From NCBI GenBank assembly GCA_937921735.1, contig CAKZTQ010000032.1:1-64000 (forward strand): DNA of 64,000 nt. Direction: 5' to 3'. The stretch's first letter is position 1, and every line of letters starts with the position of its first letter. The position numbers and the translations under genes are program-made. Shown here one piece after another: positions 2,676-9,622 of the stretch. The notes beneath the pieces were generated by a model. The model saw only the letters and a list, made by a program, of their open reading frames with translations. It had not been told where the DNA came from and did no database searches. Source of the stretch: an uncultured archaeon (GTDB taxonomy: Archaea; Hadarchaeota; Hadarchaeia; Hadarchaeales; Hadarchaeaceae).

Positions 2676-2782
2676 GGGGAGACGCAAATCTTCCCCTCTT
2701 TTTTGTATTTTTGTTTTTGATTCCCGTCGCGGCAACGCGTCGTGTTTTCCCTTCATAAAATACCTTCGCCAAAGCTCCGCCG

Positions 2783-3281
2783 TGACACACGTATGTCGTC
2801 GAGCCCCAGTTCAACGCCAACCGCCCACACGCGTACGTCATACCTGCTCGTGTACGACATACGCAGGCCGGACAACGCCCTTAGGCTAAGGGTGAACAGG
2901 CGTCTGAAAGGGCTGGGGGCGTCGAGGTTGCAGCACTCGGTCTGGGAGCTCGATCGCCTGGACGACTTCTTGGGGCTCGCGACCCTCATGAGGTCGGCGG
3001 CGGGAAGGCGCTGATCCTCGAAAAGAGGGTCGTCCTGATGACACACGTATGTCAAAGATCTCGCGACGTTCGGCAGTTTTCTGACTCACGTGTGTCACGT
3101 TTTTGACATACGTATGTCATCAACCCTTGACTCCCAACATCTGCCGTGACATACGTATGTCATCGATTTCGGCCATGCGTTTCGAGTTTGACACACGTAT
3201 GTCATCCAGCCCGCCCAGCCCCACAGCTGACACGCGTATGTCATCGGGGATAGGACGCCGTCAAGTGATACACGTGTGTCA
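2783..3281. repeat. Array of nine 16-bp palindromic repeats, consensus TGACAYACGTRTGTCA
   Basis: Copies start at about 2783, 2825, 3039, 3082, 3104, 3147, 3189, 3228 and 3266. Intervals are 42, 214, 43, 22, 43, 42, 39 and 38 bp. Copies at 3104 and 3147 are perfect palindromes TGACATACGTATGTCA. Most copies continue with TC. Confidence 0.9.
2793..3014 (+). pseudogene. Cas2-like protein, apparently frameshifted
   Basis: SYLLVYDIRRPDNALRLRVNRRLKGLGASRLQHSVWELDRLDDFLGLATLMRSAA resembles Cas2-type ferredoxin-fold proteins. The frame stops at 3014, but a one-base backward shift near 3002 gives GKALILEKRVVL, the expected last strand. Confidence 0.5.
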
Positions 3282-5229: not shown

Positions 5230-5808
5230 ATGCGAGTAGCCGTGGGCTCGACCAACCCGGTAAAGGTGAGGGCCGTCCGCAACGTGATGAGGGAGCTCTT
5301 TCGCGAGGTAAAGGTCAGGGGCGTGGACGTGGGCCCCGAGCTCCCCCCGCAGCCCATAGGCAGGACGTCGGTGATAAGGGGTGCCATCACCCGGGCCAAG
5401 CGAGCGCTGGCGTCGGGGGACTTCGACCTAGGCGTGGGGATAGAGGCGGGCTTGGAGCGGGTGGCGCAGGCGAGGTCCGGCTACGTCGACGTGCAGTGGT
5501 GCGCGGTCGCGGACAGGAGAGGGCGCGTGACGCTTGGGCACGGGGCGGGCTTCGAGTACCCCCGCGCGGTGGTCGAGGCGGTGCTCAAGGAAGGGCTGGA
5601 GGTGGGAAGGGTGATGGAGGAGCTGACGGGCATCAAGCGGATAGGCAGGCGGATGGGCGCGATAGGCTACCTGTCTAAGGGCAGGCTGGACAGGCTCCGC
5701 CTCACGGAGCAGGCGGTGCTCATGGCAATGCTTCCGAGGCTCAACCCCGAGCTGTACGAGCTCGGCGGGACGGAGGGCCGACCACCCGAAAGTTTTTCGG
5801 CGGTATGA
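5230..5808 (+). CDS. Inosine/xanthosine triphosphatase (DUF84/YjjX family)
   Basis: MRVAVGSTNPVKVRAVRNV, GVGIEAGLERV, GHGAGFEYPRAVVEAVL, RLTEQAVLMAMLP. Confidence 0.85.
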   Translation: MRVAVGSTNPVKVRAVRNVMRELFREVKVRGVDVGPELPPQPIGRTSVIRGAITRAKRALASGDFDLGVGIEAGLERVAQARSGYVDVQWCAVADRRGRVTLGHGAGFEYPRAVVEAVLKEGLEVGRVMEELTGIKRIGRRMGAIGYLSKGRLDRLRLTEQAVLMAMLPRLNPELYELGGTEGRPPESFSAV

Positions 5809-6122
5809 AAGTACGGAGACGTTGAACCTCAGGCTTGGGACATTTGGTACGCGGTCTCCGGCGACATCGTCGACGACAGCCGGGCGGAGATGAGGGGTGG
5901 GCGACGGGACGCATCACCACTGCTGGGGCACGACCGGCGCTTACCATGGCGGCGGGAAGAAGTTCTACATGAATTTCCCGCATGAAACCTGGCGTTGAAA
6001 GGTCGAGCCTCCTTCCTTTGAGGGAAAATTAAAGGGAAATTTTATTAATGGGGAAACAAAAACGAGGTCGGGGGTTGAACCGAGGGGGAGCGGGGTGAAT
6101 AAATAGCCCAGGGCATGAAAGG

Positions 6123-8441
6123 GTGGTGCACGTCAGCAAGATCGAGATGCGGGGGTTCAAGTCCTTCGGTAACACCAAGGTCACCCTTCCCCTCTCCCCG
6201 CACCTGACGGCGATAGTGGGCCCCAACGGCTCGGGGAAGAGCAACATAGTCGAGGCCTTCTGTTTCGTCCTGGGGTGGATGAGCGCCAAGACGATGCGGG
6301 CCGAGCGCTTCTCCGACCTGCTCTTCAACGGCGGAAACGGCCAGAGGCCAGCCCCGTTCGCGGAGGTCTCCCTCCACCTCGACAACAGCGACGGCGCCCT
6401 GCCCGTGAACTCCGAGGCGGTGGTAATAACCAGGCGCGTCGACCGCAGCGGCAAGTGCGTCTACATGATAAACAGGAGGCGCGTCTCGCGGCAGGAGATC
6501 GTCGACCTTCTCGCCAAGGCGATGTCGAGTCCAGGCGGCTACAACTTCATCATGCAGGGCGATGTGGACAGGTTCATCAAGATGAGCCCTCTGGAGCGCA
6601 GGGCGATCATCGATGACATCGCGGGCATCGCGGAGTACGACGAGAAGAAGGAGAAATCGCTGGCCGAGCTTCAGAAGGTCGAGGCCAACCTCCAGAGCAT
6701 GGGGGCGATCCTAAACGAGATAGCCATGCAGATGGAGAGGCTGCGCAGGGAGAAGGAGGACGCCCTCCGCTACAGGCAGTTGAAGGCCCAGCTCGAGCAC
6801 GGCCGCGCGGTCCTGTTGCTCGCGAGGACCAACGCCTGCAGGAGGAAGCTCTCCGAAGTCCAGGCGAGGATGGCCACAAGCTCGGGGGAGCTCTCGAGGC
6901 TCAGGGAGAGGTCCCAGAAGATCTCTGAGGAGCTCGAGAGGTGCGAGGACAGGATCAGGCAGCTCGACAAGCTCATGGACGAGAGGAGGAGGTCCGATGC
7001 TCTTGCGGTCGCCAATGGTCTGCGGGAACGTGTGAGGACGCTGGCCGAGATGGTGGCCTCCGCCGGCGAGGAAAGGGCCGCGGTGGAGGCGGAGATCTCG
7101 CGGCTCAGGGCGGAGGTCGAGAAGGCCGGCGCGGAAGGGCCAAGACAGGCGAGGGGAGCGCTCGATCGTTTGCGCGAGGAGGTCGAGGACATCTCGGCGA
7201 GGTTCGCAAAGCTCAAGGAGGAGTTCGATGGGCTTCGCCGAGCCCTGAGCGAGCCGGACCGCGCGACCACCTCCGATCTCCGCAGGGCCGCGCGCGAGTT
7301 GGCGGAGGTGCTTGAGGGGATGAATCGGGTGCTCGAGGAGTTCAGTTCCTGCATCGAGCGGGCGATGGAACTTTGGGGTTCAGCTCCCCCCTTCGCGCGC
7401 GCCGCGAGGGGGCCGACGTCGGAGCTTCAGGGGCTTCGGTCCGAGCTCGCATCCCTCGAGGGCCAGCGGCTCCAGCTGGATAAGAGGCTGGAGGAGCTAC
7501 AGCGAAAGCTTCGCGATGCGGAGGCCGCCCTCGCGGAGATCGCCGAGCGCGAGCAAGATGTGAGGAGGTCCATCCGAGCCATAGAAGCCGAGAGGGAGGG
7601 CCTGTACCGCAGGTCGTCGTCGCTCAGGGAAAGGCTCGCCCGCCTACAGGGCGAGATCCAGGCCCTTGAGGGCAAGCTGCAGGGATATAATATAGAAGAG
7701 GCCCGCCTACAGGCCCAGCTCGAGATGCTGGAGGGCGAGCTGAGGAAGATGAAGGTAAAGCTCGAGGAACCCCCGCGCGTCGACGCCTCCAAGCTGGAGA
7801 GGGAGATAGAGAGAATTGAGGCCGAGATCGAGGCCATGGGGCCGATCAACGAGCGGGCGATAAGGGACTTCAGGAACGTCGAGCGTCGCTACTCCTCGCA
7901 GAAGGCACGTTACGATAAGTTGGTATGGGAGAGGCAGAAGATCCTCAACTTCATGGAGGAGATCGACAAGAAGAAGACCGAGGTTTTCATGAGGACCTTC
8001 GAGGAGATCTCCGAGAACTTCGGCAGGATATTCAGCGACCTCTCGCCCGGCGGGACGGCGAGGCTGGTGTTGGAGAACCCGGAGCGCCCGCTGGAGGGTG
8101 GCCTGGAGATAGAGGCCAAGCCTGCCGGCAAGGAGCTGGTGCGCGTGGAGGCCATGTCGGGGGGCGAGAGGGCCCTGACCGCGCTGGCGTTCATCTTCGC
8201 CGTGCAGAGGGCGAAGCCCACGGCTCTCTACGTGCTGGACGAGATAGACGCCCACCTCGACGACGAAAACCTGAGGCGCGTCGCGGAGCTCCTGCACAGG
8301 TCCTCGAGGGAGACGCAGATAGTGGTCGTCACGCTCAGGGACGCGATGATGTCTGTCGCCGACCGCCTCTTCGGCGTGAGCATGGACGGCAATGGGGTCT
8401 CGCGCGTGGTGTCGGTAGAGCTGGCGGGCTTGGCGGCGTGA
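6123..8441 (+). CDS. smc: SMC-family ATPase, short (772 aa), no recognisable hinge
   Basis: Walker A GPNGSGKSN, N-head FKSFGNTKVTLPLSPHLTAIVG and FIMQGDVDRFIKMSPLERRAIIDDIAGIAEYDEKK; C-head MSGGERALTALAFIFAVQ and YVLDEIDAHLDDEN; followed by scpA and scpB. Confidence 0.9.
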   Translation: MVHVSKIEMRGFKSFGNTKVTLPLSPHLTAIVGPNGSGKSNIVEAFCFVLGWMSAKTMRAERFSDLLFNGGNGQRPAPFAEVSLHLDNSDGALPVNSEAVVITRRVDRSGKCVYMINRRRVSRQEIVDLLAKAMSSPGGYNFIMQGDVDRFIKMSPLERRAIIDDIAGIAEYDEKKEKSLAELQKVEANLQSMGAILNEIAMQMERLRREKEDALRYRQLKAQLEHGRAVLLLARTNACRRKLSEVQARMATSSGELSRLRERSQKISEELERCEDRIRQLDKLMDERRRSDALAVANGLRERVRTLAEMVASAGEERAAVEAEISRLRAEVEKAGAEGPRQARGALDRLREEVEDISARFAKLKEEFDGLRRALSEPDRATTSDLRRAARELAEVLEGMNRVLEEFSSCIERAMELWGSAPPFARAARGPTSELQGLRSELASLEGQRLQLDKRLEELQRKLRDAEAALAEIAEREQDVRRSIRAIEAEREGLYRRSSSLRERLARLQGEIQALEGKLQGYNIEEARLQAQLEMLEGELRKMKVKLEEPPRVDASKLEREIERIEAEIEAMGPINERAIRDFRNVERRYSSQKARYDKLVWERQKILNFMEEIDKKKTEVFMRTFEEISENFGRIFSDLSPGGTARLVLENPERPLEGGLEIEAKPAGKELVRVEAMSGGERALTALAFIFAVQRAKPTALYVLDEIDAHLDDENLRRVAELLHRSSRETQIVVVTLRDAMMSVADRLFGVSMDGNGVSRVVSVELAGLAA

Positions 8442-8451
8442 GGTGTTCGCT

Positions 8452-9111
8452 ATGGGCGTGGTGGTGGATCAACCGTTTCAAATCCTCCTCGAGCTGGTGC
8501 AGGCCCACAAGCTGGATCCTTGGGACGTGGACATCGAGAGGCTCACCGACGTCTTCCTGCGCCGCATGCGCGAGCTCCGCGAGCTGGACATCAGGGTCTC
8601 CGGGAGGGCCCTCCTCTCGGCGTCCACCCTGCTGAGGATAAAGTCCGACCGCGCGCTCGACGGGGATGGGCACGGGCGGGTTGCTGAGGAGGAGCTCGAG
8701 GAGGTGCTGGACATAGATCTCCCGGAGCTTGGCCCTGTCCTGATGATACAGCGCGCCCCCCACATGATCACGCTCGCGGATCTCCTAAGCGGGCTCCGAG
8801 AGGCCCTGCGGGAGGCGCCCGCGGGGGCGAAGCCGGCGAGGAAGGAGATGGAGAAAATCGTGCGGGCGCTGAGCGAGTACCGCGTCAACATCGAGCGGCA
8901 CCTGCGCAGGCTGCACGAGCGAATAGCCAAGCTCGCCGCGGACGGGCGGAGGGTCACGATGTCGGAATTGCTGGAGGAGAGGACGAGGTTGGCCGTGGCG
9001 CGCACCCTGCTCCTCCTGCTCTTCCTGTGCGCGCGGAGGAAGATAGCGATCTGGCAGGAGGAGCCCTTGGGCGAGGTGTTCATCTCCCTGTTGGCGCCGC
9101 CGGGTGGTTGA
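8452..9111 (+). CDS. scpA: Segregation and condensation protein A
   Basis: DQPFQILLELVQAHKLDPWDVDIERLTDVFLRRM...ALLSASTLLRIKSDRAL; position directly after smc. Confidence 0.9.
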   Translation: MGVVVDQPFQILLELVQAHKLDPWDVDIERLTDVFLRRMRELRELDIRVSGRALLSASTLLRIKSDRALDGDGHGRVAEEELEEVLDIDLPELGPVLMIQRAPHMITLADLLSGLREALREAPAGAKPARKEMEKIVRALSEYRVNIERHLRRLHERIAKLAADGRRVTMSELLEERTRLAVARTLLLLLFLCARRKIAIWQEEPLGEVFISLLAPPGG

Positions 9112-9622
9112 GGTGGGCGTGAAGGAGGATCGCTCGCTCCTGGAGGCCGCGCTTTACGCGGCCGACCGCCCCTTGAGCTTGGGCGAGCTCCGGAGGCTTC
9201 TGGGCACGTCCTCCGAGACCTACGTCCGCAAGCTGGTGGCGGAGCTCATGCGGAGCTACGAGAGGAACGGAGGCCCGCTGAAGCTGGTGGAGACGGCAAG
9301 GGATACCTTTGCCCTCACGCTCCGCGAGGACTACCTGCCGAAGGTCGAGGGCATCGCGCCAAAGGTCAAGCTCTCCCGTGGCGCCCTCAAGACTCTGGCG
9401 CTCATCGCTTACAAGCAGCCGATCCAGCAGTCGAAGCTGGCCGAGCTGCGCGGAGGGCGCGTCTACGAGCAGGTGAGGCAGCTCGTGGCGCTGGGCTTCG
9501 TGGAGTCCAAGCCCTTCGGCCGCACCAGGGTGCTCAGGACATCGAGCAAGTTCGCGGGCTACTTCGGCTTTGAGGACGACATGGATAAAATCCGCGAGCG
9601 CCTCGGGGAGCTCATGCGCTAG
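9104..9622 (+). CDS. scpB: Segregation and condensation protein B
   Basis: LLEAALYAADRPLSLGELRRLLG...LSRGALKTLALIAYKQPIQQSKLAELRG...TSSKFAGYFGF. Confidence 0.9.
   Translation: MVEVGVKEDRSLLEAALYAADRPLSLGELRRLLGTSSETYVRKLVAELMRSYERNGGPLKLVETARDTFALTLREDYLPKVEGIAPKVKLSRGALKTLALIAYKQPIQQSKLAELRGGRVYEQVRQLVALGFVESKPFGRTRVLRTSSKFAGYFGFEDDMDKIRERLGELMR

Follow-up and report, generated by a model that had tools for sequence, protein, structure and literature searches.

The hinge is regarded as a defining part of SMC proteins and as a step in models of their loading and of loop extrusion. One locus in the window analysed here (the whole stretch of 64,000 nucleotides) raises the question of what could hold an SMC dimer together when the hinge is missing. 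A preliminary description of this locus had reported an smc-scpA-scpB operon whose SMC is hinge-less and short-armed, and had proposed a complex closing only through its heads and kleisin. The first part of that description stands, but the second gives way to a different preferred reading, because a conserved helical hairpin at the tip of the arms fits a dimeriser.

The smc-scpA-scpB locus of a Hadarchaeal genome

The window belongs to a Hadarchaeota assembly of 1.05 Mb that is 83% complete. The smc gene (6123..8441, plus strand), identified from its open reading frame and profile matches, has a GTG start and encodes a hinge-less SMC of 772 aa. Its stop codon lies immediately 5' of the start of scpA (8443..9111, plus strand), which encodes a kleisin of 222 aa, and scpB (9104..9622, plus strand; 172 aa) begins before scpA ends. 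The presence of ScpA and ScpB downstream of smc, as described earlier, was confirmed by matches to Pfam SMC_ScpA (E 2.2e-18) and SMC_ScpB (E 4.3e-34); the match of the ScpA protein to Rad21_Rec8 (E 9e-5) fell just below the cut-off. Both genes are syntenic in the order, and the gene order smc-scpA-scpB is conserved across the complete loci of the Hadarchaeota order. Since the archaeal ScpAs tested so far fail to bind their ScpB (PMC7055376), the Hadarchaeal ScpB may, by analogy, lie outside the SMC complex.

The 772-aa protein matched PF02463 (SMC_N) with 233 bits, both ends being covered. Its best full-length model was that of archaeal SMC, TIGR02169, which it matched in two separate stretches with 664.4 bits against a cut-off of 729.4, a slight shortfall that is expected when the middle of the protein is missing. 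The closest named genome is that of Candidatus Hadarchaeum yellowstonense (48% identity). Purifying selection acts on the gene, with a dN/dS of about 0.15 for one pair of orthologues (L003/L007) and about 0.29 in the tip region. Elsewhere in the window, a short open reading frame (2742-3014, plus strand; YLLVYDIRRPDNALRLRVNRRLKGLGASRLQHSVWEL) has a Cas2-type look, judged by eye alone.

Anatomy of the protein

An AlphaFold2 monomer model was built from a 20-sequence alignment and had a mean pLDDT of 79.5; the features below all lie on the plus strand. The N-terminal half of the ATPase head (residues 1-168; 6123..6626), delimited by predicted secondary structure and conservation, carries the Walker A motif GPNGSGKS (residues 33-40; 6219..6242), in which G33, N35, G36, G38, K39 and S40 are invariant in the alignment. 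The C-terminal neck and head (residues 579-772; 7857..8438), delimited in the same way, contain the ABC signature SGGE (residues 679-682; 8157..8168; S679, G680 and G681 invariant) and the Walker B motif LYVLDEID (residues 702-709; 8226..8249; Y703, V704, D706, E707 and D709 invariant). Both ATPase heads of the reading frame originally described are present, with Walker A, signature and Walker B intact. The best PDB match, also for the C-terminal neck and head, was 5xei (E 3e-46), a head, coil and joint construct of Pyrococcus yayanosii Smc, and because this is the closest solved structure, the natural Hadarchaeal protein can be likened to the P. yayanosii fragment plus a tip.

The N-terminal arm (residues 169-332; 6627..7118) is modelled as helices 169-289 and 292-332, with a break at 290-291, and aligns colinearly with the part of the arm next to the head in archaeal SMCs that have a hinge. 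The C-terminal arm (residues 435-571; 7425..7835), assigned from the model and the alignment, begins with a helix at 435-542, which is followed by helices at 555-571 and 579-640. At about 165 aa each, the arms have about half the usual length; alignment with hinge-bearing archaeal SMCs indicated that the hinge is missing together with the distal part of both arms, roughly half of each. The arms are separated by only about 100 residues, all alpha-helical or disordered in the model, and no beta strand was predicted anywhere in the middle of the protein. In place of the hinge, the model has a 67-residue helical hairpin of moderate pLDDT (about 60-76), which consists of tip helix 1 (residues 350-374; 7170..7244) and tip helix 2 (residues 383-416; 7269..7370) and is set between two flexible, low-confidence linkers, one at residues 333-349 (7119..7169; pLDDT about 50) and one at residues 417-434 (7371..7424; pLDDT below 50 at 418-432). 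The stretch quoted earlier for the midpoint (VLEEFSS...SELQG) turns out to be the end of tip helix 2 together with the disordered second linker, which accounts for most of it; the midpoint is thus more than plain coil.

Absence of a hinge and of a zinc hook

The preliminary description had claimed that neither a hinge nor a CxxC zinc hook is present, and had named a hinge profile search, a comparison of orthologues and a check of the assembly as the ways to examine this. PF06470 (SMC hinge) had no match in the protein or in the whole source genome. The phylum was sampled with 28 genomes, 27 from the order and one sister genome; PF06470 was found in none of the 27, which represent three families, and was present in the sister genome within an SMC of 1,144 aa (E 1e-27). 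The same profile matched 25 of 30 other archaeal genomes, and three of the five negative ones had merely weak or partial SMC matches. A custom hinge HMM made from 13 archaeal SMCs gave E values of 1e-16 to 1e-51 in those other archaeal SMCs whose hinge is recognisable, and its best match in the Hadarchaeal SMCs was at E 0.5 and located near the head. Profile-profile comparison (hhalign) of the hinge with the Hadarchaeal SMC gave 0.1%. The hinge-less claim is thus borne out by all three methods, and that of the missing zinc hook by the absence of CxxC from all 21 Hadarchaeal orthologues. A second full-length SMC, whose presence would have spoken against the earlier claim, was found neither in the source genome (83% complete) nor in its relatives.

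The 21 complete orthologues have 725-773 aa each and no internal stops. Because the short form recurs in all of them, with the same anatomy and in many separate assemblies, a local assembly error, including an in-frame deletion, is excluded as its source. That the short protein is an artefact, whether of an assembly deletion or of a hidden divergent hinge, is scarcely credible: nothing speaks in favour of it, and against it stand the shared length and anatomy of the orthologues, the helical or disordered character of the residues between the arms and the negative hinge profiles.

In a separate observation, an Aigarchaeota SMC (L060:4001-7405) has the full length of 1,135 aa and scpA/scpB nearby in a genome without a recognisable hinge; it has an altered signature, ASGGEK, and is also negative for the custom hinge HMM.

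Conservation of the tip hairpin

The hairpin is retained in all Hadarchaeal orthologues, and the flanking linkers are unconserved. Four residues (F361, F368, L371 and L397) are invariant or nearly so in the Hadarchaeal alignment. Between residues 389 and 412 the share of conserved large hydrophobics reached 0.41, where the mean of the coil is 0.265 (sd 0.054); apart from the head-proximal neck, no coil stretch had a higher share. The broad conserved hydrophobic face of tip helix 2 includes the pairs 396/397 and 403/404, which are one heptad apart; nowhere else in the distal arm do two conserved hydrophobics stand side by side. Overall, conservation of the tip was below that of the heads and on average not above that of other parts of the arm. 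Given that a two-helix hairpin would bury one stripe only, we infer that the tip hairpins assemble into a bundle with three or more helices, the simplest case being two paired hairpins; the hydrophobic pattern is compatible with a substitute dimeriser. Bacillus subtilis grows normally when its Smc carries the Rad50 zinc hook instead of a hinge (Burmann et al. 2017, PMC5344682). Because the hinge fold is replaceable there, a natural replacement of the hinge is plausible, and the earlier statement goes too far in making hinge dimerisation a requirement of loop extrusion models.

Hinge-less SMCs in SAR11 and Patescibacteria

A scan of the genome collection yielded SMCs of 729-866 aa from Pelagibacteraceae and Patescibacteria. 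An SMC was matched at E 1e-40 or better in 180 of the 197 genomes of the SAR11 order, and the frames among the matches listed had 798-891 aa, none being near 1,150. PF06470 matched none of the 197 genomes, a result to be read with the weakness of this model in Alphaproteobacteria, where it matched 44 of 142 genomes with weak scores and missed the hinge of Caulobacter, which was absent from its positive controls although the SMC_N head of Caulobacter was detected. We therefore rejected PF06470 as the sole hinge test in this class, and the SAR11 case is built instead on length, alignment and a structural model. By these, the SAR11 SMCs (e.g. L033, L035, L037, L038, L043) appear to be hinge-less throughout the order, and in the AlphaFold2 model of one of them (L035) arm turns into arm via three residues (pLDDT about 80 there). 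An 866-aa alphaproteobacterial SMC related to those of SAR11 (L042:4001-6598) has a degenerate hinge-like segment at about residues 365-402 (PF06470 E 0.08); this segment resembles the first half of a hinge and may represent an intermediate stage in the loss of the hinge, or else the divergent alphaproteobacterial hinge.

In the Patescibacteria group, the hinge-less SMC model was matched at E 1e-30 in 96 of 287 genomes, and PF06470 scored above the cut-off in just nine of the 287. About 39 of the 96 matches were a single unbroken span, with frames mostly of 705-830 aa (frames of 840-1,100 aa were left out of individual inspection). Hinge-less Patescibacterial SMCs of 710-830 aa with a variable helical tip were observed at L034, L036, L039, L045, L051, L052 and L128-L157. 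We do not claim that the Hadarchaeal and Patescibacterial tips share ancestry: when the whole middle was compared, hhalign gave 95.7% over 142 columns, which carries little weight because coiled coils readily yield such scores, and the tip alone gave 52%.

Repeated loss of the hinge

In a tree made from head residues only (466 columns), the Hadarchaeal SMCs formed a clade with 100/100 support nested inside the hinge-bearing archaeal SMCs, and the hinge-less SMCs of SAR11 and of Patescibacteria formed separate clades, each among bacterial SMCs. This tree requires at least three hinge losses (Hadarchaeales, SAR11 and Patescibacteria) when L042, the possible bearer of half a hinge, is counted with SAR11, so that a single common origin of all hinge-less SMCs is unsupported. 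Because the sister genome and most other archaea bear a hinge, the Hadarchaeal loss dates to the base of the order and occurred once.

Several small-genome archaea (L117-L123; genomes G031, G038, G040, G041, G044, G053 and G060) have SMCs of 830-872 aa with half-length arms and a hinge, which makes them natural mini-SMCs. Alignment placed the shortening of their arms at a position similar to that in the Hadarchaeal proteins; since these SMCs shortened their arms yet kept the hinge, the two changes are separable. The full-length smc of the sister genome (G027; L112) differs in its surroundings from those of the window's order: the 1.4 kb between it and the end of the contig gave no match to scpA or scpB.

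Comparison with known systems

The Hadarchaeal SMC has the bipartite ABC head, the neighbouring ScpA and the archaeal SMC descent of a canonical SMC, and lacks a PF06470 hinge and a score above the full-length cut-off of TIGR02169. With the archaeal SMC-ScpA condensin of Pyrococcus and Thermococcus (PDB 5xei, 5xns, 4i99) it shares the ATPase head, neck, joint, kleisin partner and clade in the head tree, but it is without the hinge and the distal halves of the arms and has a new helical tip. Engineered Smc proteins of B. subtilis work with another dimeriser, the zinc hook, or with shortened arms, the functional shortened arms having 253-267 aa (Burmann et al. 2017, PMC5344682); the Hadarchaeal form is natural and has arms of about 165 aa. 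ASRPs (ClsN/coalescin, Sph) are short archaeal SMC relatives, most of which have a zinc hook (Yoshinaga et al. 2022, PMC9389158). The Hadarchaeal protein is likewise a short archaeal ATPase of the SMC superfamily; unlike an ASRP, it is adjoined by ScpA, and its score of 145 bits against the ASRP model NF045487 (cut-off 300) shows that it is not one. Nor is it RecN (63 bits against TIGR00634, cut-off 408). It resembles Rad50/SbcC in having a coiled coil without an SMC hinge, but it has no CxxC zinc hook and scores far under the cut-offs of the NCBIfam Rad50 models.

The hinge-less SMC as a kind is already known. In the accessible part of their account, Sussfeld et al. 2025 (PMC12153180) describe "hinge-less" SMCs from ocean metagenomes, annotated as Actinomycetes, which have neither a hinge nor CxxC. 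The Hadarchaeal SMC shares with these the SMC heads and coiled coil as well as the two absences. Those SMCs branch within Bacteria and are given no kleisin context in that part of the account; the Hadarchaeal SMC branches with archaeal SMCs, is order-wide and syntenic with scpA/scpB, and has a conserved hairpin at its tip. Hinge loss in Hadarchaeota, SAR11 or Patescibacteria was not found in the literature searched, a coverage outside which most subscription papers and preprints lie; within it, the order-wide archaeal case, the kleisin synteny, the tip hairpin and the extent in SAR11 and Patescibacteria look new. Recurrent loss makes the hinge less universal than textbooks state, and the recurrence in SAR11 and Patescibacteria suggests that condensins of this kind may be common where genomes are streamlined. 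SMCs that occur naturally without a hinge, throughout an order and in company with a kleisin, offer a direct test of the purpose of the hinge and of long arms, and the Hadarchaeal SMCs are small enough for expression of the whole protein and for solution of its structure.

How the dimer may be held together

The explanation that we favour, with about an even chance of being correct, is that the tip hairpins hold the dimer together as a minimal substitute for the hinge, in addition to the heads and the kleisin. The protein is the orthologous, vertically inherited SMC of the archaeal SMC-ScpA(-ScpB) condensin; in the ancestor of the order the hinge disappeared along with the distal half of either arm, and the head, neck, joint and arms of about 165 residues remained. 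Two hairpins would come together as a four-helix bundle, an alpha-helical stand-in of minimal size for the hinge; the dimer would then be joined weakly or reversibly at the tip, while ATP and the ScpA kleisin would hold the heads. The outcome would be a smaller SMC-kleisin ring, presumably able to translocate along DNA, that compacts a chromosome of about 1 Mb. Counting against pairing at the tip is the SAR11 hinge-less SMC, whose modelled tip is a mere three-residue turn, so a tip module is not required in every hinge-less SMC. The moderate pLDDT of the hairpin in a monomer model, a tip conservation that does not exceed the average of other arm parts, and the chance that ScpB stays outside the complex also weigh against the favoured reading.

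This SAR11 turn, which implies that tip-free SMCs seem to exist, is one of the points in favour of the closure originally proposed, in which the tip is monomeric, the hairpin caps the coil or binds DNA, and two SMCs are joined solely by ATP-dependent head engagement and an asymmetric ScpA bridge. The absence of every known dimeriser (hinge or CxxC hook) from all orthologues agrees with such closure, as do the halved arms, which look as though a long lever were unneeded; however, every orthologue retains the hairpin, whose hydrophobic face and phenylalanines exceed the needs of a helix cap. We therefore consider closure by heads and kleisin possible but distinctly less probable than a dimer of tip hairpins. 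The broader proposition, that a natural SMC-kleisin complex without tip dimerisation arose on three or more occasions among prokaryotes with small genomes (Hadarchaeales, SAR11 and Patescibacteria), seems to us rather unlikely. If the tip-free reading were true, hinge closure would be dispensable for chromosome folding in some of Earth's most abundant cells.

A heterodimeric complex, in which the hairpin pairs with the tip of a second SMC-like ATPase or with another protein, is improbable. The source genome and most genomes of the order do encode a second short SMC-like protein, and CxxC was absent from all 13 copies checked, but its gene is unlinked to the smc operon and the SMC retains its own ScpA, as homodimers do. 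More doubtful still, and in our judgement very improbable, is a repurposed ATPase that does not extrude DNA and has a local role, for example as a RecN- or Rad50-like repair clamp. SMC-superfamily repair proteins of comparable size are likewise without an SMC-type hinge, which is in keeping with this proposal. Against it, these genomes have no other SMC orthologue, as the second SMC-like protein is far more divergent; the protein is operonic with scpA and scpB; its RecN and Rad50 scores are far under the cut-offs; and a separate, hook-bearing Rad50 is present. A homodimer paired through its tip hairpins is thus the reading that we prefer.

The second SMC-superfamily ATPase has about 620-650 aa (L188, L195-L206), and its copy in the source genome (L188; G000:C21, about 5400-7250, minus strand) is a frame of 626 aa. 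The genomes that encode it are without a PF06470 hinge. It scored 46 bits against the ASRP model (cut-off 300), its best match was TIGR02169, and it is possibly an SMC5/6-like archaeal SMC.
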